This document shows positions 12,116 through 38,164 of a stretch of DNA of 64,000 nucleotides, piece after piece (position 1 is the stretch's first letter; each line of letters starts with the position of its first letter). Made by a program: the position numbers and the translations under genes. The notes below the pieces were generated by a model. It was given only the letters and a program-made list of their open reading frames with translations, searched no databases and was not told the DNA's origin. This stretch comes from Amaricoccus sp. (GTDB lineage: Bacteria > Pseudomonadota > Alphaproteobacteria > Rhodobacterales > Rhodobacteraceae), in assembly GCF_017993425.1 (NCBI RefSeq), contig NZ_JAGOMQ010000021.1:1-64000 (forward strand). Direction: 5' to 3'.

Positions 12116-12142
12116 ATCTTGTGTGTCCTTTCGTGTCCGGAT

Positions 12143-16395: not shown

Positions 16396-18270
16396 CTATG
16401 CGTTGGCGGCCACCATCGGCGCGGCGGCGTCGGCCTCGTCGATCTCCCCGAGCAGCCGCTCGGCCTCCGGCGAGCCGGGGGCGGCGTAGTTCAGGTTCCG
16501 GAAGAGGCCGGCGAGCCGGGTGAAGTGGCGCCGGACCTCCTCCTTGTCGGTGAAGCCGTAGTCGCGCCGCGCGATCGAATAGACCCGGTCGAAGAGCGCC
16601 TTCTGCCGCTCCAGCGAGACCGAGCTGTCGATCTCGTCGAAGGCGTCCTGCTGCAGGTAGACCATGTCGACGAACTTCGCCGCCTCGGAGATGACGAAGT
16701 CCTCGACGCTGATGCCCTCCTCGCCGGTCACCTGCTCCATGCGCGCGATCTCGTCGCCGCGCTTCAGCAGCGCCATCATCGCCTCGACCCGGTCGGTCCA
16801 GTCGGCGGCGATGTTCTCCGAGGCCCAGCCCTCGAGCTGGCGCAGGTAGCGCGACCAGGAGATCAGCGGGTCGATCGCCGGGTAGAACCGCTTGTAGGCA
16901 CGGTCGTAGGAGAGGCCGAGGAAGCATTTCACCGCCGCCAGGGTGGACTGGGTGACGGGCTCCTCGAAGTTGCCGCCCGCCGGCGAGACCGAGCCGATCA
17001 GCGTCAGCGCGCCCTCGGAGCCGTCGTTGGTGCGGATGCGGCCGGCGCGCTCGTAGACGCCCTTGATGGCGCTGTCGAGATAGGCGGGGAAGGCCTCCTC
17101 GCCCGGGATCTCCTCGAGCCGCCCGGAGGTCTCGCGCATCGCCTGCGCCCAGCGGGAGGTGCTGTCGGCGATGATCAGCGTGCGCAGGCCCATCTGGCGG
17201 TAGTATTCGCCGATGGCGATGCCGGTGTAGATCGACGCCTCGCGGGCGGCGACCGGCATCGAGGAGGTGTTGCAGACGATCACCGTGCGGTCCATCAGCG
17301 AGCCGCCGGTCTTGGGATCCTTCAGGTGCGGGAACTCGGTGATGGTCTCCACCACCTCGCCCGCCCGCTCGCCGCAGGCGACGAGCACCACCACGTCCAC
17401 GTCGGCGTGCCGCGCGATGAGGTTGAGGAGCACCGTCTTGCCGGCGCCGAAGGGTCCGGGGATGCAGGCCGCGCCCCCCTGAACGACGGGGAAGAAGGTG
17501 TCGATGATCCGCTGGGTGGTGATCATCGGCTGGTCGGGGAAGAGGCGGGTGGACCAGCCCTTGGCGAGCAGCTTGCGCGGCAGCGGCTGGCGCACCGGCC
17601 AGTCCTGGGCCAGCGTCACCGTGCGCTCGGCGCCCGAGGCCGCCTTGATGCGGGCGATCGGCTCGTCGACCGTCACCGACCCGTCGCGCAGCCAGGTCAC
17701 CTCGAACTCCTCGTCGAGGTCGAAGGGGACCATGATCTTGTGGGTGATCGGGCCCTCGGGCACCGTGCCCACCGTGTCGCCGCCGCGCAGCCGGTCGCCG
17801 ATGCGCACGCTGGCGGCGAAGGACCATTTGGCGTTGGGGTCGAGCCCCGGCGCCTCGACGCCGCGCGGCAGGAAGGTGCCGTGGCCGACGGCCAGCGCCT
17901 CCAGCGGGTTCTGGAGCCCGTCATAGACCTGGCCGAGCAGGCCGGGGCCGAGGCGGACGGAGAGGAGCAGGCCGGTCTGCTCGACGGCGTCGCCGAGGCC
18001 GACGCCCTCGGTGCTCTCGTAGACCTGGGCGTCGGCGCTGTCGCCGATCACCCGCAGCACCTCGGCCTTCAGCCGCTCGTGGGGCGTGCGGGCGGGGCGG
18101 ATGTAGACGACCTCGTTCTTCACCAGCCGGCCCTCGCCGGAATCGGCGAGCCGCAGGCGGACGATGTCCTCCTGCACGGCGGAGATGTAGGCGACGGGCT
18201 CGGGGGCGGCCGCCCCGGGCTCCTGCCGGCGGTCCTTGCCGCGGCCCTTCCGGCCTTCTGGCGTCTTCAT
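16396..18270 (-). CDS. V-type ATPase catalytic subunit A
   Basis: A 624-residue catalytic subunit starting at the ATG at 18270. After a short basic tail (MKTPEGRKGRGKDRRQ) come the beta-barrel domain and the non-homologous insert (THKIMVPFDLDEEFEVTW, with PEGPITHKIMVP). The P-loop GPFGAGKT is at about residue 270, followed by VVVLVACGERAGEVVETITE and TLIIADSTSRWAQAMRETSG. These are A-type signatures, distinct from F-type beta. It hydrolyses or makes ATP in the V1 head together with subunit B. It is the last gene of the operon; its ATG overlaps the stop of the previous gene (ATGA). Usually A precedes B, so this position is odd. Confidence 0.95.
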   Translation of the reverse strand: MKTPEGRKGRGKDRRQEPGAAAPEPVAYISAVQEDIVRLRLADSGEGRLVKNEVVYIRPARTPHERLKAEVLRVIGDSADAQVYESTEGVGLGDAVEQTGLLLSVRLGPGLLGQVYDGLQNPLEALAVGHGTFLPRGVEAPGLDPNAKWSFAASVRIGDRLRGGDTVGTVPEGPITHKIMVPFDLDEEFEVTWLRDGSVTVDEPIARIKAASGAERTVTLAQDWPVRQPLPRKLLAKGWSTRLFPDQPMITTQRIIDTFFPVVQGGAACIPGPFGAGKTVLLNLIARHADVDVVVLVACGERAGEVVETITEFPHLKDPKTGGSLMDRTVIVCNTSSMPVAAREASIYTGIAIGEYYRQMGLRTLIIADSTSRWAQAMRETSGRLEEIPGEEAFPAYLDSAIKGVYERAGRIRTNDGSEGALTLIGSVSPAGGNFEEPVTQSTLAAVKCFLGLSYDRAYKRFYPAIDPLISWSRYLRQLEGWASENIAADWTDRVEAMMALLKRGDEIARMEQVTGEEGISVEDFVISEAAKFVDMVYLQQDAFDEIDSSVSLERQKALFDRVYSIARRDYGFTDKEEVRRHFTRLAGLFRNLNYAAPGSPEAERLLGEIDEADAAAPMVAANA

Positions 18271-18956
18271 GCGGCGTCCTCCAGCCCGGGGTCGCCGGCC
18301 ATGGCGGCGTCGAGCATCTCGGCGAAGCGGGCGGCGGCCGCGTCGGAATCGTAGCGCGCCCATCGTTCGGCGAGCGACCAGCGCATCAGGTAGAGCCCCA
18401 CCGCCTCGAGATCGAACTCGTGGCCGAAGGCGCGCCGCTCCGCCGCCTCCCAGGCGGCTTCCAGCACGACGCGCTCCATCCCGGCGGCGTCGCCCTTCTC
18501 GAGCATGTCCCGGGCGGCGGGCAGCCAGGGGAAGCTGCGCCCGAGGCCGAAATCCGGGAGGCTCCAGCCGGCGCGGATCCGCTCGACGTGGCGGCCGAAG
18601 CCCCAGGGCGCGCCCGGGGGCGGCGCCTCCTCGCCGGCATGGCGCCGGCGGAGCGCGGCGACCAGCGTACGGATCTCCAGCCGCTCCTCGATGGCGGCGC
18701 GCAGGTCGCCGTCGGGGACGCCGGCGAGGACCTTCGCCGCGCGGTCGAGGAAGGCCGCGTCGTCGTCGCCCACGTCGATCCGGTCCCAGGAGAGGATCGA
18801 GCGCGCCAGCTCCACCCCCGCCATGTCCTCCGGCGAGAGCGCCTTCAGCCGCTCGTTGAGCCGGGCGCGGTTGATCGGCGGCTCCTTCTCGGAGAGGAGC
18901 CCGATGGCGGGCAGGCTCGCCATCAGCGTCACGTAGGGGTCGCCCTGGTAGATCAC
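18267..18956 (-). CDS. V-ATPase operon protein, DUF2764-like (possible subunit C analogue)
   Basis: A 229-residue soluble protein. The start is a GTG at 18956 that overlaps the stop of subunit E (GTGA). It begins MIYQGDPYVTLMASLPAIGL, as DUF2764 proteins of V-ATPase operons do, and is rich in Trp, Leu and Glu in helical segments (LNERLKALSPEDMAGVELAR, EFDLEAVGLYLMRWSLAERW). No membrane segment or catalytic motif is seen. In the V-ATPase operons I know from Bacteroidetes a DUF2764 gene sits between E and A, just as here, in the place of subunit C. A role as a stalk or collar subunit is therefore inferred. Confidence 0.75.
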   Translation of the reverse strand: MIYQGDPYVTLMASLPAIGLLSEKEPPINRARLNERLKALSPEDMAGVELARSILSWDRIDVGDDDAAFLDRAAKVLAGVPDGDLRAAIEERLEIRTLVAALRRRHAGEEAPPPGAPWGFGRHVERIRAGWSLPDFGLGRSFPWLPAARDMLEKGDAAGMERVVLEAAWEAAERRAFGHEFDLEAVGLYLMRWSLAERWARYDSDAAAARFAEMLDAAMAGDPGLEDAA

Positions 18957-19648
18957 TTCACCACCCCTTCGAGGAGCGCCCGGAAGCGCGGCTGGAGATG
19001 GGCGAGGATCGCCTCGGCCACCGCCCGGTCGGAGAGGTCGATGCTGACCCCACGGTCGCCGAGCTCGAGGCGGATGCCGCCCGCGTCGTCCCCGGCGCGG
19101 CCGAAGGTCACGCCCTTGCGCAGCATCTCGGCCGCGGAGGCGGCGGCGAAATGGGTGAGCGAGCCCTCGCGGAGCTGCTCGGGCTTGCGCCGGAGCTCGT
19201 CGAGGCCGACGGCGGCGCGGGGCAGGATCACCTCGACCTCCGCCGCCTGGTCGACGGCGCCCTCGTCGCGGGCGCGGGAGGCGACGGCGAGGATCATGCG
19301 CTTGAGCAGCTCCTCGTCGCGCATCGCCTCGGAGACGGTCTTGCCCACGTCCTCGGCGAAGCGGCGGGCGAGCTGCTCCTTCAGCTCCAGCACCGCGTCG
19401 CGGGCGGCGACGCGCAGCGCGTCCTCGCCGGCGCGCCGCTGCGCCTCGGCCTCGCGGTAGGCGGCCTCGCGGCGGGCCTTGGCGTCGGCCTCGGCGGCGT
19501 CGACGAGCTTGCGCGCGCGGGCCTCGGCCTCGGCGACGATGCGCTCGGCCTCGGCGCGGCCGGCGGCCACGCCGTCGTCGCGCAGCCGGGCGATCAGGGC
19601 CTCCACGCCGGAGGCTGCGCCGGCGGCGCTGGGGACGGTCTCGGCCAT
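18953..19648 (-). CDS. V-type ATPase subunit E (peripheral stalk)
   Basis: A 231-residue protein from the ATG at 19648. The N-terminal half is a long Ala/Glu/Arg-rich helix (AEAERIVAEAEARARKLVDA, AYREAEAQRRAGEDALRVAA) that would form the right-handed coiled coil of the peripheral stalk. The globular C-terminal half ends LEGVVK and contains GIRLELGDRGVSIDLSDRAV. It should link the V1 head to subunit I. It begins 4 nt after the stop of subunit K, and its stop overlaps the next start. No separate subunit G/H gene is seen, so the partner helix of the stalk is not identified. Confidence 0.85.
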   Translation of the reverse strand: MAETVPSAAGAASGVEALIARLRDDGVAAGRAEAERIVAEAEARARKLVDAAEADAKARREAAYREAEAQRRAGEDALRVAARDAVLELKEQLARRFAEDVGKTVSEAMRDEELLKRMILAVASRARDEGAVDQAAEVEVILPRAAVGLDELRRKPEQLREGSLTHFAAASAAEMLRKGVTFGRAGDDAGGIRLELGDRGVSIDLSDRAVAEAILAHLQPRFRALLEGVVK

Positions 19649-19652
19649 GTCG

Positions 19653-20099
19653 CTACCCCTCGATGCCGCCCGCGAGCACCAGCGCGAAGACGAAGGAGAA
19701 GACCGCGAAGCCCTCGACGATGGCCGCGGGCGCGAGCGCCAGGCCGAAGATCTCGGGCTTGTTCTTCGACGCCGCCACCGCGCTCGCCAGCGCGCGTCCC
19801 TGCCAGATGCCGATGTAGAGGAGCGCGAGCCCGAGCACGAAGCCGATGCCGAAGAGCGCGCCGCCGTTCTCCGGCGTCACCGCCCGCTGGAGCGCGAACA
19901 TCACCACGATGCCGTAGATCACGTTCGAGGACGGGATCGCCGCGGCGCCGATGAAGCGGCCATAGCCGCTGTCGGTCTCCTGCATCGCGCCGATCGCCGC
20001 CTGGCCGGCGATCGCCACCCCGATCGCGCTGCCGAGCGCGCCGCCGCCCACGGGCGCGAACACCCCCAGCCAGCCGAGCAGGACGATGAGTTCATTCAT
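19653..20099 (-). CDS. V-type ATPase subunit K (membrane rotor proteolipid)
   Basis: A 148-residue protein with four membrane helices in two hairpins. The ion-binding carboxylate is the Glu in the last helix (ALAPAAIVEGFAVFSFVF). The first hairpin has GSAIGVAIAGQAAIGAMQE and IPSSNVIYGIVVMF. By eye, the region matching the sodium-ligand motif of the Enterococcus hirae rotor (LPGTQ) reads IPSSN, and the helix-3 Gln position appears to be Ala. Proton coupling is therefore perhaps more likely than sodium, but this needs an alignment. The ATG at 20099 overlaps the stop of subunit I. Confidence 0.92.
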   Translation of the reverse strand: MNELIVLLGWLGVFAPVGGGALGSAIGVAIAGQAAIGAMQETDSGYGRFIGAAAIPSSNVIYGIVVMFALQRAVTPENGGALFGIGFVLGLALLYIGIWQGRALASAVAASKNKPEIFGLALAPAAIVEGFAVFSFVFALVLAGGIEG

Positions 20100-21889
20100 G
20101 CGGGCGCCTCCCTTTTTGCGAACGCGCGGAACGGATAGCCTTCCTCGGACAGGCCCCAGCCGAAGAACTCGACGTAGTTGAGCCGGAGCCCGTGGACCAC
20201 GCCGCTCATGATGCCGATGACGACGTTGATCGCGTGGCCGAAGACGAGCACGACGATCGCCAGGAGCACGCCGATGCCCGGATGCAGCTCGCGCACCTGC
20301 CCGGCGAGGTCGTTGAAGGTCGCCGCCAGCGAGGCGCTGGCGAGGCCGAGGGCGAAGAGCCGGAGATAGCTCAGGATGTCGCCGAAGAGCTTGGTGACGC
20401 CGGTAAGCCCGAGGAGCCCGTCGCTGATCCGGAAGAGCCAGTCGGAGGGCCTGTTCACCGGCCTGCCGGCGGCGCTGCCCCAGAAGACGGCGCCGAGCCC
20501 CGCGGCCAGCGCCACCATCCCGGCCGCCCGCAGGATGTCGCCGCCGAGCCAGATCAGCAGCCCGGCGGCGATGACCCCGATCCAGCCGAGCGCCGCGAGC
20601 GCGCGCGGCGTGCCGCGGTTGAGCCAGGCGACGGTCCCGAGCGCGATGGCGATGTGCAGGCAGCCGATGGCCACCGAGACCACCATCATCTTCTGGAAGT
20701 CGCCCACGTCGATGATCCGCAGGCGGCCGAGCAGGCTGCCCTCCGGCGGATGCGCGCCGAAATAGGAGCCCGCCAGCACGCCGTAGACGAGCGAGGCTCC
20801 CGAGAGGGCGGCGAGCAGCATCCGCGCCCGGCGCCCGGCGGCGCTGGCGCCGAGCCGGCGCCAGAAGAAGGCGGTGCCGAGGGCGAAGAGCGCCGCATAC
20901 CCCGCGTCCGCCACGATCATCGCGAAGAAGACCGCGAAGGAGGCGAAGACGATCAGGCTCGGGTCCCAGCTCCGGTAGGCGGGGCTGGTGTAGAAGCTCG
21001 TCAGGTCGCCGCCGATGGCGAGGCGGTCGTCGTCGGCGCGCAGGAGGGTCGGGGGGCTGTCCTCCGGCCCCGGCGCCTCGGTCACCAGCGCGAGGCCGCG
21101 CGCCTCGGCGAAGTCCCGGAGCGCGGGGGCGGCCTCCTTCGGCGCCCAGCCCTGGATCGCGAAGACCTCGCCCTCGTCGAGCGTCTGGCCGGAGACCTCG
21201 CGCAGCTCGTCCTGGTCCCGGGCGGCGGCGAGGTCGATGCCGAGCAGCACCCGCCAGCGGCTGAGCTCCGCCCGCTCGCGCTCGGCCTTCTCCAGCTCGA
21301 TCTCCAGGTCCTCGAGCTCCACGCGGAGCGCCCCGAGCGGCTTCTCCCCCACTTGCGTGCGCAGAACCGGCAGGAGGTTGACCGGCGGCTCCTCCGGCGC
21401 GATCACCGCGACCAGAAGCTCCGTGGGCGTGCGCCCGACCGCCGCCCAGGGCAGGTCCAGCCGGTCGAGCGCCGCCCGCTCCTTCAGCGGCAGGGCGTAG
21501 AGCCAGAGCCGCTCGCCGCCGATCTCCTCCGGCGCGGGCAGGGCGAAGTCGCCCCAGGGCTCCAGCCCCTCGACCAGCGCCTCCACCTCGTCGCGGCGGT
21601 CGGCGAGCTCGCGCAGCCGCAGGCGGTTGGCCATGATCGCGCCGATCACCGCCCCGGGGTCGAACGCCATGCCGTCGCGATAGGGCCGCAGCCGCTCCGG
21701 CGCCTCCATGACGTGGCGGAAGGCGGTCTCGGCCCGCCGCCGCGTCGCCGGATCGTCCGGCGTCAGCGGGCCGGGCTCGCTGAGAGGCACGACATGCAGC
21801 ACACCGAGCGCCTGCAGCCCGTCGAGCACCTCCGCCTTGTCCCCGGCGACGCCGCAAAGCGTCACCCGATGCATGGGAACGATGCTCAT
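20096..21889 (-). CDS. V-type ATPase subunit I (membrane stator)
   Basis: A 597-residue subunit from the ATG at 21889, which overlaps the stop of subunit D. The soluble N-terminal half begins MSIVPMHRVTLCGVAGDKAE and holds coiled coils (LRVELEDLEIELEKAERERA). The C-terminal half has about seven membrane helices with the family core SWDPSLIVFASFAVFFAMIV, FGDILSYLRLFALGLASASL and VLVFGHAINVVIGIMSGVVH. The last contains the usual short HAxN-type motif, and the half-channel Arg is expected in SYLRLFALGLA. It forms the stator channel facing the K ring. Confidence 0.92.
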   Translation of the reverse strand: MSIVPMHRVTLCGVAGDKAEVLDGLQALGVLHVVPLSEPGPLTPDDPATRRRAETAFRHVMEAPERLRPYRDGMAFDPGAVIGAIMANRLRLRELADRRDEVEALVEGLEPWGDFALPAPEEIGGERLWLYALPLKERAALDRLDLPWAAVGRTPTELLVAVIAPEEPPVNLLPVLRTQVGEKPLGALRVELEDLEIELEKAERERAELSRWRVLLGIDLAAARDQDELREVSGQTLDEGEVFAIQGWAPKEAAPALRDFAEARGLALVTEAPGPEDSPPTLLRADDDRLAIGGDLTSFYTSPAYRSWDPSLIVFASFAVFFAMIVADAGYAALFALGTAFFWRRLGASAAGRRARMLLAALSGASLVYGVLAGSYFGAHPPEGSLLGRLRIIDVGDFQKMMVVSVAIGCLHIAIALGTVAWLNRGTPRALAALGWIGVIAAGLLIWLGGDILRAAGMVALAAGLGAVFWGSAAGRPVNRPSDWLFRISDGLLGLTGVTKLFGDILSYLRLFALGLASASLAATFNDLAGQVRELHPGIGVLLAIVVLVFGHAINVVIGIMSGVVHGLRLNYVEFFGWGLSEEGYPFRAFAKREAPA

Positions 21890-22512
21890 GCCTCGCCCGC
21901 CCGCGAATTCGCCTGCGCTTCCGCCTCGCGCTTCTTCTTGGCGATCTTCGAGCGCACCACGGCCGCGCGCTCGGCGTCGCCGAGATAGACGTTGATCCGG
22001 CGGATGTTGTCGCGGGCCTGCGGGATCAGCACCTTGTCGAAGAGGTTCACCCGCTGGGTGATCCTGACCGCCGCGGCCTCGAGCAGCTCCAGCCGCTCGG
22101 CCGCCACCCGCGCCTCGACCCGGAGGCGGATCGCGGCGGCGAGCCGCTCGACCACCGCGTCGACCCAGTGCGGCCGCACCATCCGGCCGTAGGAGGCGCG
22201 GATCACCTCGACATGCTCGACCACCGGCAGCCGCACGCCGGCGACGTTCTGGGAGCCCATCCGCACCGCGCCGAGCCGCGCCAGCCCGTCGAGCGCCACC
22301 CGCCGGTCGGCGAGCATGGGGATCGCCTCGCCCGCCTCGGCGATGGCGGCGGCGATCCGCGCCTCGATCTCGGCGATCGCGCGTCGTGCCCGCTGCCGCT
22401 CGCCCATGACCTGCTGGCGCTTGAGATCGAGCGCCGGCAGATAGCGCCCGTAGGCGACGAGGTTCTCCTTCTCGCGCGAGAGCTGCGACTTCGACAGGGG
22501 CACGCGCGCCAT
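21886..22512 (-). CDS. V-type ATPase subunit D (central rotor stalk)
   Basis: A 208-residue protein from the ATG at 22512, 3 nt after the stop of subunit B. It is almost entirely helical with a long antiparallel coiled coil. The N-terminal helix is MARVPLSKSQLSREKENLVA (compare the PTKxxLxxLKxxL pattern of the family). The C-terminal helix is RVNLFDKVLIPQARDNIRRI, which matches the conserved (R)VNALExxxIPxxxxTIxxI block. It should turn inside the A3B3 head. Subunit F, its usual partner, was not found in the operon. Confidence 0.9.
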   Translation of the reverse strand: MARVPLSKSQLSREKENLVAYGRYLPALDLKRQQVMGERQRARRAIAEIEARIAAAIAEAGEAIPMLADRRVALDGLARLGAVRMGSQNVAGVRLPVVEHVEVIRASYGRMVRPHWVDAVVERLAAAIRLRVEARVAAERLELLEAAAVRITQRVNLFDKVLIPQARDNIRRINVYLGDAERAAVVRSKIAKKKREAEAQANSRAGEA

Positions 22513-22515
22513 GGC

Positions 22516-23862
22516 TCAGGCGGCCTTGCGCGGGTAGTACTTGTCGATGAGGTTCTGGCGCACCAGCAGCTCCTCGGGCGCGAAGCACTCCGCCATGGTC
22601 TCCCAGCCGAGATCGAGCGCCTTCTCGACCGGCAGCGCCACGGAGAGGTCCATGAACCGCTCCTCGAAGAGCGCGCCGTAGCGCACCAGCCGCTCGTCGA
22701 ACTCCGAGAGCTCGAAGGCCATCGCCTGCTTGCGCTGCGCGTCGCGGGCGCCGGAATAGAGGCGGATCATCGTGTTCATCACCGCCGAGTGATCCTCGCG
22801 GGTCTCCTTGCCGATGACGTGCTGCTTCAGGCGGGAGAGCGACCCGAACGGGTCGATCCGCCCGTCGCGCAGGTAGAATTGCCCCTCGGTGATGTAGCCG
22901 GTGTTGTCGGGCACCGGATGGGTGACGTCGCCGCCGGGCATGGTGGTGACGGTGAGGATCGTCACCGACCCCGCGCCGGGGAAGACCGCGGCCTTCTCGT
23001 AGCGCCGGGCGAGCTGCGAGTAGAGATCGCCGAGATAGCCGCGGTTGGAGGGCACCCGCTCCATGGCGATGCCCACCTCCTTCATCGCATCCGCATAGGC
23101 GGTCATGTCGGTGAGGAGCACCAGCACCCGCTTCTTCTCCTCGACGGCGAACTTCTCGGCCACGGCCAGCGCCATGTCGGGGACGAGCAGCCGCTCCAGC
23201 GCCGGGTCGGAGGCCTGGTTGACGAACATCACCGTGCGCGCGAAGACGCCGGCGTCCTCGAAGGTCGAGCGGAACCGCCAGTAGCTGTCGAAGGTGAGGC
23301 CGAGCCCGCCGAAGACCACCACGTCGGCGTCGGCCTGCACGCCGATGCGGGCCAGGAGCGCGTCGTGCGGCTCGCCGGCGGTGGAGAAGATCGGGATCTT
23401 CTGGCTCTCCGCCAGGCAGTTGAAGACGTCGATCATCGGCACGTCGGTGCGGATCATCCGCGACGCCAGCGCGCGGCGCGCCGGGTTAGGCGAGGGGCCT
23501 CCGATCGACGCCTGCGGGTCGTGGGCGAGCGAGGGCCCGCCGTCCGCCACCCGCCCGTCGCCGGCGAAGACCCGGCCGAGGATGTTGGGCGAGAACGCCA
23601 CCCGCGGCGCATGGCCGAGGAAGCGCGCCTGCGTCCGCGTCGAGAGGCCGGCGGTGCCGGAGAAGACCTGCAGCGAGGCCTCGCCCTCGTCGAGCCGCAC
23701 CACCTGGGCGAGGCGGGGGGCGGCGTCGCGCTCGCCGACGAGCGCGAGGTCGCCGAGGCGCGGCCCCTCCGGGCCGTCGCGCGTCTGCGGGGGCAGGGCG
23801 ATGCGCACCACATCGCCGACGATGGAGAGCACCCTGTCGTAGTTGATGGAAACGCCAGACAA
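22516..23862 (-). CDS. V-type ATPase subunit B (non-catalytic head subunit)
   Basis: About 448 residues from a TTG at 23862. GGGAGG lies 8 nt upstream and the family start (SGVSINYDRVLSIVGDVVRI) follows, so the longer upstream reading is rejected. Typical B-subunit blocks are SPNILGRVFAGDGRVADGGP, SQKIPIFSTAGEPHDALLAR (no Walker A, as normal for B), ERLLVPDMALAVAEKFAVEE, RVLVLLTDMTAYADAMKEVG and SIPARRGYLG-like NRGYLGDLYSQLARRYEKA. It is the first V-ATPase gene, 148 nt downstream of the SLC13 transporter stop, and could share its transcript. Confidence 0.93.
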   Translation of the reverse strand: MSGVSINYDRVLSIVGDVVRIALPPQTRDGPEGPRLGDLALVGERDAAPRLAQVVRLDEGEASLQVFSGTAGLSTRTQARFLGHAPRVAFSPNILGRVFAGDGRVADGGPSLAHDPQASIGGPSPNPARRALASRMIRTDVPMIDVFNCLAESQKIPIFSTAGEPHDALLARIGVQADADVVVFGGLGLTFDSYWRFRSTFEDAGVFARTVMFVNQASDPALERLLVPDMALAVAEKFAVEEKKRVLVLLTDMTAYADAMKEVGIAMERVPSNRGYLGDLYSQLARRYEKAAVFPGAGSVTILTVTTMPGGDVTHPVPDNTGYITEGQFYLRDGRIDPFGSLSRLKQHVIGKETREDHSAVMNTMIRLYSGARDAQRKQAMAFELSEFDERLVRYGALFEERFMDLSVALPVEKALDLGWETMAECFAPEELLVRQNLIDKYYPRKAA

Positions 23863-24010
23863 AACGACCGCCTCCCAGTTCCCGTTGCTTTGCCCTAGAG
23901 GCCCGCACGCATTCCTTGCCGGTATCGAGACCTGCCCCGCCGCATCATCGGAGCGCAAAGACATCGCCCCGATTCCTCTGGCGGCCGGGGCCTCGCGCGC
24001 CGCGGGGACG

Positions 24011-26224: not shown

Positions 26225-27172
26225 ATGACCGATTCACCTTCGCCGCGCCGCAAGTACGAGCGGCTGATCGCCGCCGTGGCCGAGCTGCCCCCTGTCCCGA
26301 CCGCCGTGGCGCATCCCTGCTCGGACGCCGCCCTCGAAGGGGCGGTCGATGCGGCCAGGATGGGGATCATCGCGCCGATCCTGGTGGGTCCGCGCGCCAA
26401 GATCGTCGCCGTGGCCGAGGCGGCGGGGCTCGACATCTCGCCCTACGAGATCGTCGACGCCCTGCACAGCCACGACGCGGCCGAGAAGGCGGTGGCGCTT
26501 GTGCGCGAGGGCCGGGCCGAGATGCTGATGAAGGGCTCGCTGCATACCGACGAGCTGCTCGGCGCCGTGGTGCGCCGCGACACCGGGCTGCGCACGGAGC
26601 GGCGGCTCAGCCACTGCTTCCTGCTCGACGTGCCGAGCCACGACCGGGTGCTCATCGTCACCGACGCCGCGATCAACATCTTCCCCACGCTGGAGGAGAA
26701 GGTGGACATCGTGCAGAACGCCATCGACCTGGCCCATGCCATGGGCGTCGCCGAGCCGCGGGTGGCGATCCTCTCGGCGATGGAGACGGTCAACCCCAAG
26801 TTGCAGAGCACGGTGGAAGCGGCGGCCTTGTGCAAGATGGCCGACCGCGGGCAGATCACCGGCGGGCTGCTCGACGGGCCGCTGGCGCTCGACAACGCGA
26901 TCAGCGCCGAGGCCGCGCGGATCAAGGGGATCGGCGGGCCGGTGGCCGGCCAGGCCGACATCCTGGTGGTGCCGGATCTTGAGGCGGGCAACATGCTGGC
27001 CAAGAGCCTCGGCTTCCTCGCCTCGGCCGATTCCGCCGGCATCGTGCTCGGCGCGCGGGTGCCGATCACGCTGACCAGCCGGGCGGATTCGGTGCAGAGC
27101 CGCCTCGCCTCCTGCGCGGTGGCGGCGCTGGTGGCCAGCTACCGCCAGCGGACGGCGCCGGTGGCGTCCTGA
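26225..27172 (+). CDS. Phosphate acetyl/butyryltransferase
   Basis: A 315-residue enzyme of the short PTA/PTB family, starting at the ATG at 26225. The family blocks are AALEGAVDAARMGIIAPILV, LMKGSLHTDELLGAVVRRDT, DRVLIVTDAAINIFPTLEEK, and the C-terminal GQADILVVPDLEAGNMLAKS and VPITLTSRADSVQSRLASCA. It converts acyl-CoA and phosphate to acyl phosphate and CoA. Acetyl-CoA and propionyl-CoA are both plausible substrates given the downstream genes. The acetate kinase gene starts 1 nt after its stop, so the two are co-translated. It is divergent from the SLC13 and V-ATPase genes. Confidence 0.92.
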   Translation: MTDSPSPRRKYERLIAAVAELPPVPTAVAHPCSDAALEGAVDAARMGIIAPILVGPRAKIVAVAEAAGLDISPYEIVDALHSHDAAEKAVALVREGRAEMLMKGSLHTDELLGAVVRRDTGLRTERRLSHCFLLDVPSHDRVLIVTDAAINIFPTLEEKVDIVQNAIDLAHAMGVAEPRVAILSAMETVNPKLQSTVEAAALCKMADRGQITGGLLDGPLALDNAISAEAARIKGIGGPVAGQADILVVPDLEAGNMLAKSLGFLASADSAGIVLGARVPITLTSRADSVQSRLASCAVAALVASYRQRTAPVAS

Positions 27173-27173
27173 G

Positions 27174-28355
27174 ATGGCCGATGCGATCCTCGTCGTCAAC
27201 GCCGGCTCGTCGAGCCTGAAGTTCACCGAATACTACCTGCGGGCCGGCGGGGCGCTGGAGGTGGCGGTTCGCGGCAGTATCGAGGAGCTCTACGGCGCCG
27301 CGCGCTTCCGGGCGCGGGACGCGGCCGGCGGCACGCTGGCCGAGCATGCTTGGGAGGGCGAGGCGCCGGGCCATGCCGGGGCGCTCGACCATCTCTTCGG
27401 CTGGTTGCAGGGTCAGGCCGGCGGCGACGACCGGCTGATCGGCGTCGGCCACCGGGTCGTGCACGGGGGGGCCGACCATGCCGCGCCGGTGCGGGTCGAC
27501 GCGGGCGTGCTGGCGGCGCTGGAGCGGCTGGCGCCGCTGGCGCCGCTGCACCAGCCGCACAACCTGCTGCCGATCCGGCTGATCGCCGAGCGGCGGGGCG
27601 ACCTGCCGCAGGTGGCCTGCTTCGACACCGCCTTCCACGCTAGCGCCCCGGCGCTGTCGCAGGCCTTCGCGCTGCCGGCGCGGATCACCGATCTCGGCGT
27701 GCGGCGCTACGGGTTCCACGGCCTCTCCTACGAATACATCGCCTCGGCGCTGCCGGAGCACGACCCCAAGGCCGCGGCCGGCAGGACGGTGGTGCTGCAT
27801 CTCGGCAATGGTGCCAGCATGTGCGCGGTGGGCGCGGGGCGCAGCGTGGCGAGCACCATGGGCTTCACGGCGCTCGACGGGCTGCCGATGGGCACCCGCT
27901 CGGGGGCGCTGGATCCGGGGGTGGTGCTCTATCTGATGCAGGAGCTCGGCATGGACGCGGCCGGGATCGAGGCGCTGCTCTACAAGGAGTCGGGCCTGCT
28001 CGGCGTGTCGGGCGTCTCCAGCGACATGCGGGCGCTCCTGGAGAGCGACGCACCCTCGGCGCGACTGGCCGTCGAGCTCTTCGCCTATCGCATCGGCCGC
28101 GAGCTCGGCTCGCTGGCGGCGGCGCTGGGCGGCCTCGACGCGGTGGTCTTCACGGCAGGCATCGGCGAGAATTCCGCGGCGATCCGCGCCATGGCCGCGG
28201 AGCGCGCGGGCTGGCTCGGGCTGCGGCTCGACGCCGAGGCGAACGCCGCCGGCGGGCCGCGCATCAGCACGGCGGACAGCGCGGTGGCGGCATGGGTCAT
28301 TCCGACTAACGAGGAATTGATGATCGCCCGACACACGCTCAATCTCGTCAATTGA
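27174..28355 (+). CDS. ackA: Acetate/propionate kinase
   Basis: A 393-residue acetokinase. It opens with MADAILVVNAGSSSLKF (phosphate-binding loop) and has GHRVVHGG, RYGFHGLSYEYIA, VLHLGNGASMCAVGAGRSV and GLPMGTRSGALDPGVVLYLM, all family signatures. It makes ATP from acyl phosphate and ADP and so completes substrate-level phosphorylation after the phosphotransacylase. In the present context propionate may be as likely a product as acetate, since threonine dehydratase and a formate-lyase follow. The stop is followed by an inverted repeat (28355-28393). Confidence 0.93.
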   Translation: MADAILVVNAGSSSLKFTEYYLRAGGALEVAVRGSIEELYGAARFRARDAAGGTLAEHAWEGEAPGHAGALDHLFGWLQGQAGGDDRLIGVGHRVVHGGADHAAPVRVDAGVLAALERLAPLAPLHQPHNLLPIRLIAERRGDLPQVACFDTAFHASAPALSQAFALPARITDLGVRRYGFHGLSYEYIASALPEHDPKAAAGRTVVLHLGNGASMCAVGAGRSVASTMGFTALDGLPMGTRSGALDPGVVLYLMQELGMDAAGIEALLYKESGLLGVSGVSSDMRALLESDAPSARLAVELFAYRIGRELGSLAAALGGLDAVVFTAGIGENSAAIRAMAAERAGWLGLRLDAEANAAGGPRISTADSAVAAWVIPTNEELMIARHTLNLVN

Positions 28356-28487
28356 TCTGGGTCATGGCCAATCCCTGGATGGAAAACCCAGATTGGTGAT
28401 CGTCATATCGTGATCATGGAGACATATATACTTCTGACATAGAAGGGACGAGGCGCGAGACAAGCGCCCGGTATCGGGAAGAAACGC
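28355..28487 (+). promoter_or_regulatory. Promoter/operator region of the threonine dehydratase-formate lyase operon
   Basis: Three elements overlap here. ATCTGGGT (28355-28362) and ACCCAGAT (28386-28393) form a perfect 8-bp inverted repeat with a 23-nt loop and no T-run. TTGGT-N4-GTCAT (28393-28406) matches the FNR consensus TTGAT-N4-ATCAA at 7 of 10 positions. TGATCGTCATATCGTGATCA (28397-28416) is a partial palindrome. A possible -10 box TATACT lies at 28427-28432, which would put the FNR-like centre close to -40. A role in oxygen control is plausible because a glycyl-radical enzyme follows, but it is not shown. Confidence 0.45.
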
Positions 28488-29999
28488 ATGGCGATCGACT
28501 ATCTTGAGAAAATTCTCAACGCGCGGGTCTATGGGGCGGCGGTCGAGACACCGCTCGATCGGGCGGCGATCCTGTCGGAGCGACTGGGCAACACGCTTCT
28601 GTTCAAGCGCGAGGATCTGCAGCGCACGAACTCCTTCAAGATGCGCGGCGCCTTCAACAAGATCGCCAGCCTCTCGCCCGAGGCGCTGGCGATCGGCGTG
28701 ATCACCGCCTCCTCGGGCAACCATGCCCAGGGCGTGGCCTATGGCGCCAAGGTCAAGGGCTGCCGGGCGGTCATCGTGATGCCGGTGTCCACGCCGGCGA
28801 TCAAGGTCGACGCGGTGCGCGCGCTCGGCGGCGAGGTGGTCCAGTACGGCGACAGCTTCACCGACTCGCTCGGCCATGCGCTGGAGCTGGAGAAGACCGA
28901 GGGCCTCAGCTTCGTGCATCCCTACGACGATCCCGAGGTGATCGCCGGCCAGGGGACGATCGGGATGGAGATCCTGCGCCAGTGCCAGGAGCCGATCCAT
29001 GCGGTCTTCATCGCCATCGGCGGCGGCGGGATGATCGCCGGCATCGGCGCCTATCTCAAGCGCCTGCGGCCCGAGACACGGATCATCGGCGTGCAGCCGG
29101 TGGACTCGGACGCGATGAAGCGGTCGCTGGAGACGGGCGAGCGGGTGCTCTTGCCGCATGTCGGCCTCTTCGCCGACGGCGTGGCGGTGCGGCAGGTGGG
29201 CGAGGAGACCTTCCGCGTCGCGCGAGAGGTGATCGACGAGATCATGCTCATCGACACCGACGCGATGTGCACCGCGATGCGCGAGGTCTTCGCCGAGAAC
29301 CGCGCCATCCTGGAGCCCTCGGCCGCGCTGACCGTGGCGGCGGCCAAGGACTATGTGGCGCGCGAAGGCATCCGCGATCAGGTGCTGGTCTCGGTGCTCT
29401 GCGGCGCCAACATGAACTTCGACCGGCTCGGCTTCGTGGTGGAGCGGTCCTATGCGGGCGAGCATCGCGAGGCGCTGCTCGGGATCACGGTGCCGCGGAC
29501 GCCCGGCTCGGTGCGCCGGCTGATCGACACGATCGGCGAGCACCGGTTCAGCGAGTTCGGCTACCGCCTCGGCGATGCGGAGGCGGCGCAGGTGTTCGCG
29601 GGCATCTACGTCTCCGGGCGCGAGGACACGGCCGCGACGATCGGCGCGCTGGAGGCGGCGGGCTTCGCGACCACCGACCTCTCCGACAACGAGCTCGCCA
29701 AGACCCATCTGCGCCACCTCGCCGGCGGCCGCAGCCCGGCGGCGGGGCAGGAGCAGCTCTACAGCTTCGAGTTCCCCGAGACGCCCGGCGCCTTCGGCGC
29801 CTTCCTCAGCCGGATGCGCTCGGACTGGACGGTGAGCCTGTTCCACTACCGCAACCACGGGGCGGACCACGGGAGCGTCCTGATGGGCGTGCAGGTGCCG
29901 CCCGGCGACGAGCCGGCGTTCCGTGCCTTCATCGAGGAGCGCGGCTATCCCTTCGTCGAGGAAACCGACAACCCCGCATACCGGATGTTCCTGCGCTGA
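28488..29999 (+). CDS. ilvA: Threonine ammonia-lyase, biosynthetic-type with ACT-like C-terminus
   Basis: A 503-residue PLP enzyme. The lysine of [10 protein letters not shown] (K51) binds [17 protein letters not shown] and the phosphate loop [14 protein letters not shown] follow, and [11 protein letters not shown] closes the catalytic part near residue 320. The C-terminal 170 residues contain two ACT-like regulatory repeats ([20 protein letters not shown] and [20 protein letters not shown]). This is the architecture of feedback-controlled IlvA, not of the short catabolic TdcB. It makes 2-oxobutyrate and ammonia from threonine. The formate-lyase gene follows 40 nt later, suggesting that 2-oxobutyrate is cleaved. 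The ATG at 28488 follows GGGAAG. Confidence 0.92.
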
Positions 30000-30039
30000 G
30001 CGCGGGCGTCCCGCAGCACATCTCCCAGGAGGACACGCA

Positions 30040-32295
30040 ATGGCCGCCAAGATGGACGTGATCGACAGGCCCGAAACCGACGCCTGGCGCGGCTTCCGGC
30101 CCGGGCCGTGGCAGGCGCGCATCAACGTGCGCGACTTCATCCAGCGCAACTACACCCCCTACGAGGGCGACGCGGGCTTCCTGGCCGGGGCGACCGAGCG
30201 CACGCGCAAGGTCTGGGACAAGCTCATGCCGATGATCATCGAGGAGCGCGAGAAGGGCGTGCTGGCGGTCAGCCAGGAGCCTTCCAGCATCATCGCCCAT
30301 GCGCCGGGCTACATCGACAAGGATCTGGAGCTGATCGTCGGGCTGCAGACCGACGCGCCGCTGAAGCGCGCGATCATGCCCAAGGGCGGCTGGCGGGTGG
30401 TGGAGGCGAGCCTCAAGGCCTACGGCTTCGAGCCCGACCCCGAGATCGCCAAGATCTTCACCAAGTATACCCGGACCCACAACGACGGCGTGTTCGACGC
30501 CTACACCCCCGAGATCCGCAAGTGCCGCAGCTCGGGCATCGTCACCGGCCTGCCCGACGCCTACGGCCGCGGCCGCATCATCGGCGACTATCGCCGCGTC
30601 GCCCTCTATGGCATGGACCGGCTGATCGCGGACAAGCACCGCGAGAAGGCCGAGCTCGACGACCGCCATTCGACCGAGGAGGTCATCCGCCTGCGCGAGG
30701 AGCTCTCCGAGCAGATCCGCTCGCTGAAGCAGCTCAAGGAGATGGCGGCCCTCTACGGCTACGACATCTCCGGCCCGGCCACGACGGGGCGCGAGGCGGT
30801 GCAGTGGACCTATTTCGCCTATCTCGCCGCCACCAAGGAGCAGAACGGCGCGGCGATGTCGGTGGGCCGCATCTCGAGCTTCCTCGACATCTTCCTCGAT
30901 CGCGACATCCGCGACGGCCGGCTGACCGAGAGCGAGGCGCAGGAGCTGATCGACGATCTGGTCATCAAGTTCCGCATCATCCGCTTCCTGCGCACGCCCG
31001 ACTACAACAACCTCTTCTCCGGCGATCCGACCTGGGTGACCGAGTATATCGGCGGCATGGGCCAGGACGGCCGCACGCTGGTCACCAAGACCAGCTTCCG
31101 CATCCTCAACACGCTCTTCACCCTGGGCCCGGCCCCCGAGCCCAACCTCACCGTCGGCTGGTCGCCGCGGCTGCCGAGGGGGTTCAAGGAGTTCGCGATC
31201 CGCTGCTCGATCGAGACCAGCTCGATCCAGTACATGTGCGACGACCAGATGCGGCCGAAATGGGGCGACGACGCCGCCATCGCCTGCTGCGTCTCGGGCA
31301 TGGCGGTCGGCAAGCAGATGCAGTTCTTCGGCGCCCGGGTGAACCTCTTGAAGTCGCTGCTCTACGCGATCAACGGCGGCCGCGACGAGATGTCGGGCGA
31401 GCAGGTCGGCCCGCCGCTGGCGCCGGTCACCGGCGACGTGCTCGACTACGATGAGGTGATGGCGCGCTTCGAGATCGTGAGCGAGTGGCTAGCGCGGACC
31501 TATGTCAACGCGCTCAACATCATCCACTACATGCACGACAAGTACTGCTACGAGTCGGTCCTGATGGCGCTGCACGACCGCGACATCCTGCGGACGCTCG
31601 CCTGCGGCATCGCCGGCCTGTCGCATACCGCCGACAGCCTTTCCGCGATCAAATACGCCACGGTCCGGCCGGTGCGCGACGAGACCGGCCTGATCGTCGA
31701 CTACACGATCGAGGGCGACTTCCCGAAATACGGCAACAACGACGAGCGGGCGGATGCGATCGCGGTGGATCTGGTCCGCTCGTTCATGGCCAAGATCCGC
31801 CACTACGAGACCTACCGCGACGCGCGGCACACCCAGTCGATCCTGACCATCACCTCGAACGTGGTCTACGGCAAGCAGACCGGCAACTCGCCGGACGGCC
31901 GCAAGGCCGGCGTGCCCTTCGCTCCGGGCGCCAACCCGTCGAACGGCGCGGACACCCACGGCGCGCTCGCGGCGATGATGTCGGTGGCGAAGCTCCCCTA
32001 CGACGAGGCCGAGGACGGGATCTCGCTGACGATCTCGGTGGTGCCGACCTCGCTCGGCAGCGACCAGGACCGGATCGACCGCGGCGTCGGCGGGCTCGAC
32101 GCCTATTTCTCGTCGAACGGCTTCCACGCCAACCTCAACGTGCTCAACCGCGAGACGCTGCTCGACGCCGTGGAGCATCCCGAGAACTACCCGCAGCTGA
32201 CGATCCGCGTCTCGGGCTATGCGGTGAACTTCGTCAAGCTCACCCGCGAGCAGCAGCTCGACGTGCTGAACCGCACCTTCCACGGGTCCATGTAG
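30040..32295 (+). CDS. pflB: Formate C-acetyltransferase / 2-oxobutyrate formate-lyase (glycyl radical enzyme)
   Basis: A 751-residue enzyme starting at the ATG at 30040 behind AGGAGG. The paired active-site cysteines C416-C417 lie in [13 protein letters not shown], and the radical glycine G726 in [13 protein letters not shown] near the C-terminus. Length and layout match PFL and TdcE. It cleaves pyruvate or 2-oxobutyrate with CoA to formate and acetyl-CoA or propionyl-CoA, and oxygen destroys its active form. It lies between threonine dehydratase and its activase, so TdcE-like use of 2-oxobutyrate is likely. Such an enzyme in an alphaproteobacterium points to an anaerobic or microaerobic phase of life. 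Confidence 0.95.
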
Positions 32296-32298
32296 CCC

Positions 32299-33153
32299 AT
32301 GTCCAGCAACCTCGTCGGCAGCCGGTACGAGTTCCATCTCACGCACGAGGGGGCCGCCGAGCGCAAGCGGGCGGCATCCTATCACGCGGTCTATGCCGAG
32401 GATCTGGCCGAGGCGCCCGCGGACGAGCTCGTCGGCTACGTCCATTCCATCGAGGTCGGCAGCACCGTGGACGGGCCGGGCATCCGTTTCGTGCTGTTCC
32501 TCACCGGCTGCCCGATGCGCTGCCAGTACTGTCACAACCCCGACACCTGGCACAAGCACAACGGCGCCAAGTACCCGCTGTCGCGGATCATGTACCAGAT
32601 CGGCAAGTACACCGAGGTGCTGCGGATCTCCGGCGGCGGGCTGACCATCTCGGGCGGCGAGCCGGCGATGCAGCCGAAGCTCGTCTCCGCCATCATGCGC
32701 GAGGCCAAGGCGCTCGGCATGCACACCTGCCTCGACACCTCGGGGCGGCTCGGCACCAATCTCTCGGATGCCGATCTCGCCAACATCGACCTGCACCTGC
32801 TCGACATCAAGTCGGGCGATCCCGAGACCTACGAGCGCGTCACCGGCCATCCCCTGCAGCCGACGCTCGACTACGCCCGGCGCCTCACCGACCTCGGCCG
32901 CCCGCTCTGGGTGCGCTTCGTGCTGGCGCCGGGCCTGACCGACGCCGAGGAGAACGTCGCGCGCGTCGCCGAGATCTGCGCCGGCCTGCCGACGCTGGAG
33001 CGGGTGGAGGTGCTGCGCTTCCACCAGATGGGCAAGGAGAAGTACCGCAAGCTCGGCATCCCCTACCCCCTCGCCGAGACCGAGCCGCCCAGCCCCGAGC
33101 TCGCCGAGCGGGTGCGCGGGCAGTTCCGCGCCCGCGGCCTCACCGTCTACTGA
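32299..33153 (+). CDS. pflA: Pyruvate formate-lyase activating enzyme (radical SAM)
   Basis: A 284-residue radical SAM protein starting 3 nt after the stop of the formate-lyase. The 4Fe-4S motif is C71-x3-C75-x2-C78 in TGCPMRCQYCHNPDTW. GGGLTISGGEPAMQPKL is the SAM-binding GGE block, and HLLDIKSGDPETYERVTGHP is typical for PFL activases. It abstracts hydrogen from the glycine of PFL to install the radical. About 40 extra residues precede the core (MSSNLVGSRYEFHLTHEGAA), longer than in the E. coli enzyme. Their role is unknown. Confidence 0.95.
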   Translation: MSSNLVGSRYEFHLTHEGAAERKRAASYHAVYAEDLAEAPADELVGYVHSIEVGSTVDGPGIRFVLFLTGCPMRCQYCHNPDTWHKHNGAKYPLSRIMYQIGKYTEVLRISGGGLTISGGEPAMQPKLVSAIMREAKALGMHTCLDTSGRLGTNLSDADLANIDLHLLDIKSGDPETYERVTGHPLQPTLDYARRLTDLGRPLWVRFVLAPGLTDAEENVARVAEICAGLPTLERVEVLRFHQMGKEKYRKLGIPYPLAETEPPSPELAERVRGQFRARGLTVY

Positions 33154-33194
33154 CCAAGCCAGGGCGCCGGCAGCGCGCCGCCAGGGAGGACACC

Positions 33195-34574
33195 ATGGCA
33201 ATCAGCGTCTTCGACATCTACAAGATCGGCGTCGGCCCCTCCAGCTCGCATACGTTCGGACCGATGGTGGCCGCCGAGCGCTTCCTGAAGGAGCTGGACG
33301 CCGAGGGGCTGTTCGAGCGCGCCGCGAAGGCCGAGATCGAGCTCTACGGATCGATGGCGCTGACCGGCAAGGGCCATTTCACCGACCTCGCCAGCATGCT
33401 CGGCCTGGAGGGCAACGCGCCCGCGACCCTCGACAGCGCCACCATCCCCGCCAAGCAGGCGCGCATCGAGGCGGAGAAGACCCTGCATTTCGGCGGCCGC
33501 AAGTTCGTCCCCTTCGATCCGGCCCGCGACATCCACTGGCACGGCGAGAAGACCTACGACACCCATCCGAACGGCCTCGCCTTCCGGGCGCTCGACGCCG
33601 GCGGCGCCGAGCTCAAGCGCGGTCTCTACTTCTCGATCGGCGGCGGCTTCGTGATCTGCGAGCACGACTCGCTGAACCCGAAGGACGCGGTGGGCGACAA
33701 GAAGCCCCTGCCCTACACCACCGGCGCCGAGCTCGCCGCGATCTGCGAGCGCGAGGGCAAGACCATAGCCCAGGTGGTGATGACGAACGAGCTCGCCTGG
33801 CGCTCCGAGAAGGAGGTGCGCGACGGCCTACTGGAAATCGCGGCCGTCATGGAGAAGTCGGTGCTGGACGGCATCGCCGCCGAGCCCGGCGAGATCCCCG
33901 GTGGTCTCGGCGTCAAGCGCCACGCCGGCCAGATCCACGCCCAGCTCGAGGCGGGCAACACCCCGGGCGCCGACCTCTTCCAGCTCTCGGACTACGTGAA
34001 CGCCTATGCGCTGGCGGTGATGGAGGTGAACGCCTGCCTCGGCCAGGTGGTGACCGCCCCCACCATGGGCGCCTCGGGCATCGTGCCGGCGGTGCTTCAG
34101 GCCTACAAGAAGTTCGCGCCTTCGGCGAACGACGACAAGGTGATCGACTTCCTGCTGGTCTCCGCCGGCTGCTCGATCCCGGTGAAGATCAACGCCTCCT
34201 TCTCCGGCGCCGAGGTCGGCTGCCAGGGCGAGGTGGGCTCGGCCAGCCTCATGGCCGCCACCGGCCTCGCGCATGTGCTAGGCGCCAACACCACGGTGGT
34301 GCTCAACGCCGGCGCCATGGCGCTGGAGCACAACCTCGGGCTGACCTGCGACCCGGTGAAGGGGCTGGTGCAGATCCCCTGCATCGCCCGCAACGCGCTC
34401 GCAGCCAACAAGGCGATCAACGCGGTGCGCCTCTCCATGCTCAAGGGCGACGAGCCCAAGCGCCCCACCTTCGACCAGGTGGTCGAGGTGCTCTACCTCA
34501 CCGGCAAGGACATGTCCGACAAGTACAAGGAGACCTCCCAGGGCGGCCTCGCCGTCGTCTGGGTGGACTGCTGA
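33195..34574 (+). CDS. sdaA: L-serine ammonia-lyase, single-chain iron-sulfur type
   Basis: A 459-residue enzyme from the ATG at 33195 behind GGGAGG. It opens with SVFDIYKIGVGPSSSHTFGP, the type II serine dehydratase signature. Cluster-binding cysteines are expected in SAGCSIPVK, EVGCQGEVGSA and LGLTCDPVKG. The C-terminus reads SDKYKETSQGGLAVVWVDC, with the usual terminal Cys tail. It makes pyruvate and ammonia from serine, and the cluster is oxygen-labile. As the last gene of ilvA-pflB-pflA-sdaA it feeds pyruvate to the formate-lyase. The set parallels the enterobacterial tdc operon (TdcB, TdcD, TdcE, TdcG). Confidence 0.95.
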   Translation: MAISVFDIYKIGVGPSSSHTFGPMVAAERFLKELDAEGLFERAAKAEIELYGSMALTGKGHFTDLASMLGLEGNAPATLDSATIPAKQARIEAEKTLHFGGRKFVPFDPARDIHWHGEKTYDTHPNGLAFRALDAGGAELKRGLYFSIGGGFVICEHDSLNPKDAVGDKKPLPYTTGAELAAICEREGKTIAQVVMTNELAWRSEKEVRDGLLEIAAVMEKSVLDGIAAEPGEIPGGLGVKRHAGQIHAQLEAGNTPGADLFQLSDYVNAYALAVMEVNACLGQVVTAPTMGASGIVPAVLQAYKKFAPSANDDKVIDFLLVSAGCSIPVKINASFSGAEVGCQGEVGSASLMAATGLAHVLGANTTVVLNAGAMALEHNLGLTCDPVKGLVQIPCIARNALAANKAINAVRLSMLKGDEPKRPTFDQVVEVLYLTGKDMSDKYKETSQGGLAVVWVDC

Positions 34575-38151: not shown

Positions 38152-38164
38152 GGGCTCGGGTCCC

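Follow-up and report, generated by a model that had tools for sequence, protein, structure and literature searches.

The window, a stretch of 64,000 nucleotides from an Amaricoccus sp. contig (NZ_JAGOMQ010000021.1, positions 1 to 64,000), carries a gene set that, judged by its protein family matches, is a seven-gene V-type ATPase (V-ATPase) of the Chlamydia/Bacteroidetes kind, divergent from six genes for fermentation enzymes. Genes for enzymes that make ATP without respiration were found to recur next to V-ATPases of this kind. Counting the window, 22 of 93 distinct V-ATPase loci harbor a PPK2 gene, arginine deiminase pathway (arc) genes, phosphate acetyltransferase/acetate kinase (Pta/AckA) genes or a phosphoketolase gene around the gene for subunit B (vB). 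ATP-making neighbors thus occur in a minority of these V-ATPases, yet above chance, and this recurrence is the new element of our analysis. In the accessible portions of the open-access literature, preprints excluded, no description of a V-ATPase/arc/PPK2/AckA neighborhood was found.

The divergent V-ATPase and fermentation genes

An original prediction, made from the bare sequence of the window, had named the genes of both arms and the region between them. All named genes are present with Pfam and NCBIfam matches, both arms run in the orientation it gave, and the divergent gap measures 387 bp as claimed. The features are as follows:

15358..16317, minus strand: LysR-type regulator downstream of the subunit A gene vA (PF00126, PF03466)
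16396..18270, minus strand: V-ATPase subunit A, catalytic, 624 aa from the start at 18270 (PF00006, PF16886; NF003220 744.8 bits; P-loop GPFGAGKT)
18267..18956, minus strand: V-ATPase C-like subunit, DUF2764 (PF10962 24.3 bits, cut-off 24.1; same place in homologous operons)
18953..19648, minus strand: V-ATPase subunit E (NF002424 E 3.2e-17, 62.7 bits versus a cut-off of 241; homologues in the same place)
19653..20099, minus strand: V-ATPase membrane rotor subunit K, two hairpins, one Glu (NF007200 150.7 bits, cut-off 108)
20096..21889, minus strand: V-ATPase subunit I (PF01496; NF004429 E 8.3e-54, below its cut-off)
21886..22512, minus strand: V-ATPase subunit D (PF01813; TIGR00309 over cut-off)
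22516..23964, minus strand: V-ATPase subunit B (NF002555 669.4 bits, cut-off 431)
24011..25837, minus strand: SLC13/DASS-type permease with a TrkA_C domain (PF03600, PF00939, PF02080)
25838..26224, no strand: divergent intergenic region, 387 bp (from the coordinates)
26225..27172, plus strand: pta, short PRK11890-type phosphate acetyltransferase (NF008852 515.8 bits, cut-off 413)
27174..28355, plus strand: ackA, acetate/propionate kinase (TIGR00016 351.9 bits, cut-off 293.4)
28352..28365, plus strand: FNR/FixK-like site TTGATCTGGGTCAT, one mismatch, before ilvA (motif scan)
28488..29999, plus strand: ilvA-type threonine/serine deaminase (TIGR01124 711.4 bits; PF00585 in two stretches, i.e. two regulatory domains)
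30040..32295, plus strand: pflB, pyruvate formate-lyase (TIGR01255 1146.8 bits, cut-off 994.2; Cys-Cys, RVSGY)
32299..33153, plus strand: pflA, radical SAM enzyme activating pyruvate formate-lyase (TIGR02493 290.9 bits; CxxxCxxC)
33195..34574, plus strand: sdaA, Fe-S L-serine deaminase (TIGR00720 540.5 bits)

The left arm is ordered SLC13, a 46-bp gap, and then V-ATPase B, D, I, K, E, C-like DUF2764 and A, adjacent V-ATPase genes being tightly spaced, either 3-4 bases apart or overlapping by as much. The P-loop is seen in subunit A, and none was found in B by motif search. As the family matches of the E and C-like subunits are weak, their identities rest also on gene order and on homologues. 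In the right arm, pta and ackA (1-bp gap) are followed by a 132-bp gap and by ilvA, pflB, pflA and sdaA. The GC content is 0.72 in the V-ATPase arm and in pta-ackA, and 0.68 from ilvA to sdaA. The equivalog model, the Cys-Cys pair, the glycyl radical motif and the presence of its own activase identify the predicted PflB protein as a pyruvate formate-lyase (PFL).

The right arm had been proposed to be a Tdc-type set. Its deaminases, PFL, Pta and AckA are in place; the dehydratase is of the IlvA type and not TdcB, since it reached only 264.9 bits with the TdcB model NF006389 (cut-off 453) and has two regulatory domains. The window genome (4.24 Mb in 102 contigs) contains a second, single-domain threonine deaminase (contig C93; 34% identical to the IlvA of the window) and a second AckA (contig C59, adjoining a DUF3141 gene; 59% identical to the AckA of the window), so that ilvA and ackA of the window are extra copies.

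ATP-making neighbors of related V-ATPases

To survey related loci, 84,980 species were scanned with an alignment of five B sequences, and the best 80 of 539 relatives were taken. Together with the window, four relatives from the same family and four genomes of the class, these made up 89 loci, which were searched by tblastn with the genes of the window, arc genes, PPK2, pyruvate kinase, phosphoketolase and a Na/Pi cotransporter as queries. Later stretches were L168, L169, L170, L171 and the Tateyamaria omphalii plasmid L174, of which L169 (G909) stems from the same genome as L108 and was counted once. The order B-D-I-K-E-C-A is complete in 72 of the 80 relatives and cut by the end of the locus in six; the exceptions are L069, with B only, and L076, where B lies about 8.7 kb from D-I-K. 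A rearranged order, D-I-K-E-C-A-B, was seen in G706 (L168 9478-16277).

Twenty of the 89 loci in the main survey and two of the four further distinct loci were marker-positive. Among the 89, with overlaps, PPK2 occurs in 14, arc genes in four (L036, L088, L089, L153), Pta and/or AckA in four (the window, L042, L082, L113) and phosphoketolase in two (L054, L082). Pfam matches were obtained for arginine deiminase (ADI), OTC and an amino-acid kinase in L036, for PPK2 in L042 and for phosphoketolase (XFP) in L082; a pyruvate kinase gene directly before vB in L044 (Pfam) was left out of the count. In the two cyanobacteria Crocosphaera sp. (L074 11371-12189) and Hydrocoleum (L102 1568-2383), PPK2 sits between vB and vD. 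It lies immediately 3' of vA in Pseudochelatococcus/Chelatococcus (L044, L046, L049) and also, in convergent orientation, in Synechococcus (L054, L063). Arc genes are located upstream of this V-ATPase kind in Qingshengfaniella, L088, L089 and G439. The PPK2 match of L075 comes in two pieces, and that of L089 is 9.8 kb away.

Of the two positives among the later stretches, L168 (G706) has PPK2, and in L174 the fixed query list recovers arcC, pta and ackA. In L174, a carbamate kinase gene (11456-12430) shares 11 bp with vB, and Pta-AckA are found at a distance of about 7-9 kb. This 84-kb plasmid also carries FabI and a PhaC-like gene, and its C-like subunit matches in two pieces. In L170 (G870), a DUF3141 match (65%) is located upstream of vB, at about 6941; elsewhere DUF3141 adjoins fabI-pta-ackA (L042) or ackA (C59 of the window genome).

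Genome-wide counts in 55 genomes served to derive the numbers of neighbors expected by chance: PPK2 was found 173 times (55 of 55 genomes), AckA 63 times (50 of 55) and ADI 15 times (14 of 55). Two-domain PPK2 proteins were counted twice, which raises the PPK2 expectation. Within 10 kb of vB, PPK2 occurs in 13 of these genomes versus 0.81 expected (Poisson P 4.9e-12), AckA in three versus 0.30 (P 0.0035) and ADI in three versus 0.068 (P 5e-5). After related loci had been collapsed, the P value for PPK2 was 2.2e-5 with seven lineages and 0.0015 with five. Eight loci were added after the markers had been chosen (G284, G345, G439, G502, G706, G757, G870 and Tateyamaria; the contigs of G757 and G502 are 3.8 and 9.8 kb long). 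Three of them are positive versus 0.17 expected (P 7e-4), namely G439 with arc, G706 with PPK2 and the Tateyamaria plasmid with arcC, ackA and pta.

In a tree of the A and B subunits, the window falls into a clade of 11 members (support 1.0), ten of which, window included, are marker-positive; the remaining one, the truncated L043, has just 3.5 kb of sequence upstream of vB. Parsimony required seven changes for PPK2, three for arc, four for Pta/AckA/phosphoketolase and nine for any marker. A counterpart to part of the right arm was found in L042, a metagenome-assembled genome of the Hyphomicrobiaceae (UBA7697), where pta-ackA on the same strand precede the V-ATPase and encode proteins 81% and 72% identical to those of the window. 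A LysR gene (60% to that of the window) stands at the far end of the V-ATPase, as it does in the window. The two sets of copies pair in trees of 11 AckA and eight Pta proteins, which carry no support values. A sister relationship of window and L042 was not supported in the V-ATPase tree (0.024). The window/L042 pairing indicates that the portion tied to the V-ATPase elsewhere is pta-ackA, and not ilvA-pfl-sdaA.

Whether the two arms adjoin each other in related genomes had been proposed as a check. Among the loci examined, the six-gene arm and SLC13 stand beside a V-ATPase only here, and conservation of the exact two-arm adjacency was rejected: the 197 other genomes of the family include four further V-ATPase carriers, and neither SLC13 nor the PFL arm is present in the 20 to 34 kb inspected around the V-ATPase in any of them. 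An adjacency confined to this strain had been named as the outcome that would speak against the idea; it applies to the six-gene arm, while Pta-AckA are shared with L042 and, 8 kb off, with the Tateyamaria plasmid.

This restriction of the six-gene arm would fit chance neighborhood, in which a horizontally acquired V-ATPase came to lie next to an unrelated fermentation operon in a region of turnover, the other cases being coincidence or transfer hot spots. The V-ATPase is indeed patchy: subunit B (E ≤ 1e-150) was found in 2 of 11 genus, 5 of 385 class and 6 of 398 phylum genomes, and in 5 of 198 family genomes by NF002555 over its cut-off, the window genome counted each time. It does not appear to be vertically inherited, as the congener G130 falls into another clade, and two V-ATPase/ATP-maker cases are plasmid-borne, on Q. 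alkalisoli NZ_CP042264.1 (Rhodobacterales; vA as in G094) and on T. omphalii pDOK1-4-1. A scan of viral contigs with vB found no relative. Chance neighborhood is nevertheless unlikely in our view: the numbers of PPK2 and ADI neighbors exceed the genome-wide expectation, for PPK2 also after lineage collapse, and Pta and AckA of the window pair with those of L042 while the other AckA of the window genome is more distant.

A proposed supply of the V-ATPase with fermentative ATP

We consider it somewhat probable that the V-ATPase hydrolyses ATP and is fed in anoxia by redox-neutral fermentation. SdaA would convert serine to pyruvate and IlvA threonine to 2-oxobutyrate, which PFL and its activase would split into acetyl- or propionyl-CoA and formate; Pta and AckA would then gain ATP from the acyl-CoA, with acetate or propionate as products. 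Such a route, which besides ATP also releases formate and ammonia, can run without an electron acceptor and yields no net NADH. The V-ATPase would hydrolyse this ATP and pump H+ or Na+, so that the membrane would stay energised when respiration stops. Gene content, gene order, the excess of such neighbors over expectation and the co-occurrence with PFL are observations; the direction of the V-ATPase, its coupling to the fermentation genes, the anoxic trigger, the range of substrates and the ion are inferred.

That fermentative ATP is spent by the V-ATPase had been suggested from the window alone. It has become likelier because respiration-independent ATP makers recur beside the same V-ATPase kind; the co-occurrence with PFL and a separate F-type ATP synthase add to this, and the energetic idea of the original prediction is probably right in kind. 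PFL (TIGR01255, E ≤ 1e-100) is rare, with one hit each in 198 family and 11 genus genomes, both being that of the window, and 12 in 385 class genomes. Four of the 385 alphaproteobacteria have both PFL and the V-ATPase (G000, G284, G345, G502), where 0.16 would be expected (hypergeometric P 2.7e-6). As the window genome had been ascertained for carrying both, it was dropped, which left three of 384 versus 0.11 expected (P 6.9e-5). Around the 11 other PFL loci of the class, some of which end at contig ends, neither the six-gene order nor a V-ATPase operon like that of the window was found; in L146, pta-ackA lie about 5 kb from pfl.

Another proposed check was whether the window genome also encodes an F-type ATP synthase; it does, with the F1 genes delta, alpha, gamma, beta and epsilon on contig C12. 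This enzyme may serve poorly in reverse, as alphaproteobacterial F1Fo can be strongly inhibited in hydrolysis, and a separate pump would therefore be useful. For Paracoccus denitrificans F1Fo, the available text of one report gives ATP hydrolysis as far slower than synthesis, and states that deletion of zeta, even together with the C-terminal domain of epsilon, did not activate hydrolysis substantially (PMC8039183). The inhibitor function of zeta is described as kept in free-living alphaproteobacteria in the accessible part of another (PMC10469736). The arginine deiminase pathway is described, in the portion available of a further paper, as yielding ATP 'without any redox reaction' (PMC3091704). 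The PFL route, arginine deiminase, phosphoketolase-AckA and PPK2 may have in common that no electron acceptor is needed.

A possible, still doubtful extension is that V-ATPase and interchangeable redox-neutral ATP makers form a transferable cassette for energisation without respiration, acquired as one unit in Alphaproteobacteria, on plasmids too, and in cyanobacteria. If true, its tightest forms would be the carbamate kinase gene overlapping vB and the PPK2 gene inside the V-ATPase operon. A poorly reversing ATP synthase leaves the question of how membrane potential is kept through anoxia, to which a V-ATPase with ATP makers would be a direct and testable answer. Such a pairing would also account for the sporadic presence of a second rotary ATPase in genomes already equipped with an F-type enzyme. 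An emergency kit for membrane charge without respiration is hinted at.

A scan for FNR/FixK-like sites provided a hint at anaerobic control. The window has four sites of the quality of the one before ilvA, versus 1.19 expected. Among 84 upstream regions, perfect sites within 420 bp before vB occur in five versus 0.25 expected (L045, L047, L048, L050, L051; four of these loci belong to one clade), and one-mismatch sites in 12 versus 4.3; in L072, a perfect site lies at -428 of vB.

Several points weigh against V-ATPases supplied by neighboring ATP makers. The markers were chosen after the first loci had been inspected, and related loci are not independent. Leaving out the window, AckA drops to two versus 0.29 expected (P 0.034), and leaving out G094, ADI drops to two versus 0.063 (P 0.0019). 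No marker was found in 71 of the 93 distinct loci, several of them truncated. All 13 loci of the Roseibium/Labrenzia/Stappia group are negative, as are those surveyed from Chromatiaceae and Oceanospirillales. Within 10 kb, markers are also lacking in the family carriers G038, G130 and G140, the PPK2 of G038 being about 18 kb off. In the Kaistia group (L045, L047, L048, L050), unrelated transporters intervene between vB and PPK2, which starts 5.8-7.6 kb upstream. PFL is missing from all four other V-ATPase carriers of the family sample and from the stretches read around the V-ATPase in G284, G345 and G502. In the window itself, the dehydratase is an IlvA with biosynthetic architecture, and the 387-bp gap contains no FNR-like site with zero or one mismatch.

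As PPK2 is the commonest neighbor (14 of 89 loci), the V-ATPase might not energise the cell membrane but acidify or load an internal store, for instance a polyphosphate body or an acidocalcisome. Such a role has been proposed for V-ATPases of Thiomargarita, at its vacuoles or at acidic bodies of polyphosphate. However, no PPK2 was found near the V-ATPase of the window, the arc, Pta-AckA and carbamate kinase neighbors yield ATP and not polyphosphate, and PPK2 is described, in the portions of the literature available, as preferentially degrading polyphosphate. We regard internal storage as quite improbable.

The residues of subunit K bear on the ion and on the direction of the enzyme. K can be aligned to NtpK of Enterococcus hirae (2bl2; similarity 28 bits), and at NtpK positions L61, T64, Q65, Q110 and E139 it has I, S, N, Q and E, so that, of the full ligand set, Thr64 and Gln65 are exchanged for Ser and Asn. 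Across 86 K subunits, position 64 is Ser or Thr in all, Gln110 and Glu139 are invariant, while position 65 varies, with Gln in 52, Asn in eight, Thr in four and Met, Gly or Phe in 22. A complete ligand set predicts Na+, according to the accessible text of Mulkidjanian et al. (PMC2359735). With most Na+ ligand positions retained in similar form, and rotary ATPases being reversible in principle, the V-ATPase could be an alternative synthase, serving chiefly to produce ATP at the expense of a Na+ or H+ gradient. This is very improbable: the window genome has its F1 operon, the ATP-making neighbors point to ATP consumption, and the E. hirae V-ATPase works as a pump. Hydrolysis of fermentative ATP remains our preferred reading.

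The V-ATPase had further been thought to energise uptake by the SLC13 protein. This link found no support, as the only match in the 88 other loci (tblastn) is partial, 30% identical and 10.7 kb off (L066), and the triad with SLC13 is unproven. The gene is probably co-transcribed with the V-ATPase because of the gap of only 46 bp; a functional tie is a guess, position being the sole link. The protein reached 140.8 bits with the DASS model TIGR00785 (cut-off 198.6) and is a relative of E. coli YfbS (31% identity), and its best plasmid matches are permeases of Phyllobacterium and Sinorhizobium (52% identical). In E. coli K-12 (L172, 2404000-2420000), yfbS lies near ackA-pta, followed by yfcC, and the transporter adjoining arcA in G094 carries a YfcC-family annotation.

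Elsewhere in the window, the module has a pair of hydantoinase A/B genes on either side (9992-14188 and 36484-40231); at only 33% and 30% identity, they are no recent duplication. A predicted tRNA-Gln (3890-3964) lies within a 1175-aa open frame on the same strand (1431-4958), one of the two probably being misread, and the protein encoded at 5387-6910 combines RTX calcium-binding repeats with a C-terminal domain of the serralysin type.

Comparison with known systems

V-ATPases of Chlamydiae, Spirochaetes and Bacteroidetes have the gene order E, DUF2764, A, B, D, I, K. The operon of the window comprises the same seven subunit families (NF002555, NF007200, NF002424, DUF2764), but begins with B and ends with A, and its alphaproteobacterial host also has an F-type ATP synthase. 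In subunit K, the two hairpins and the ion-site Gln and Glu are as in NtpK of the E. hirae Na+-V-ATPase, whereas Ser and Asn stand at Thr64 and Gln65 and the similarity is only 28 bits. The E. coli tdc pathway consists of TdcB, TdcD, TdcE and TdcG; there, as predicted for the window, deaminases, a PFL-type lyase and an acetate/propionate kinase give ATP without an electron acceptor. In contrast to tdc, the window has an IlvA with two regulatory domains, a plain PFL with its own activase and Pta in the operon, and its arm is divergent from a V-ATPase. The arginine deiminase pathway, of which no ADI was found in the window genome at E ≤ 1e-60, is a redox-free ATP maker like that proposed for the window, and differs from it in substrate and enzymes.

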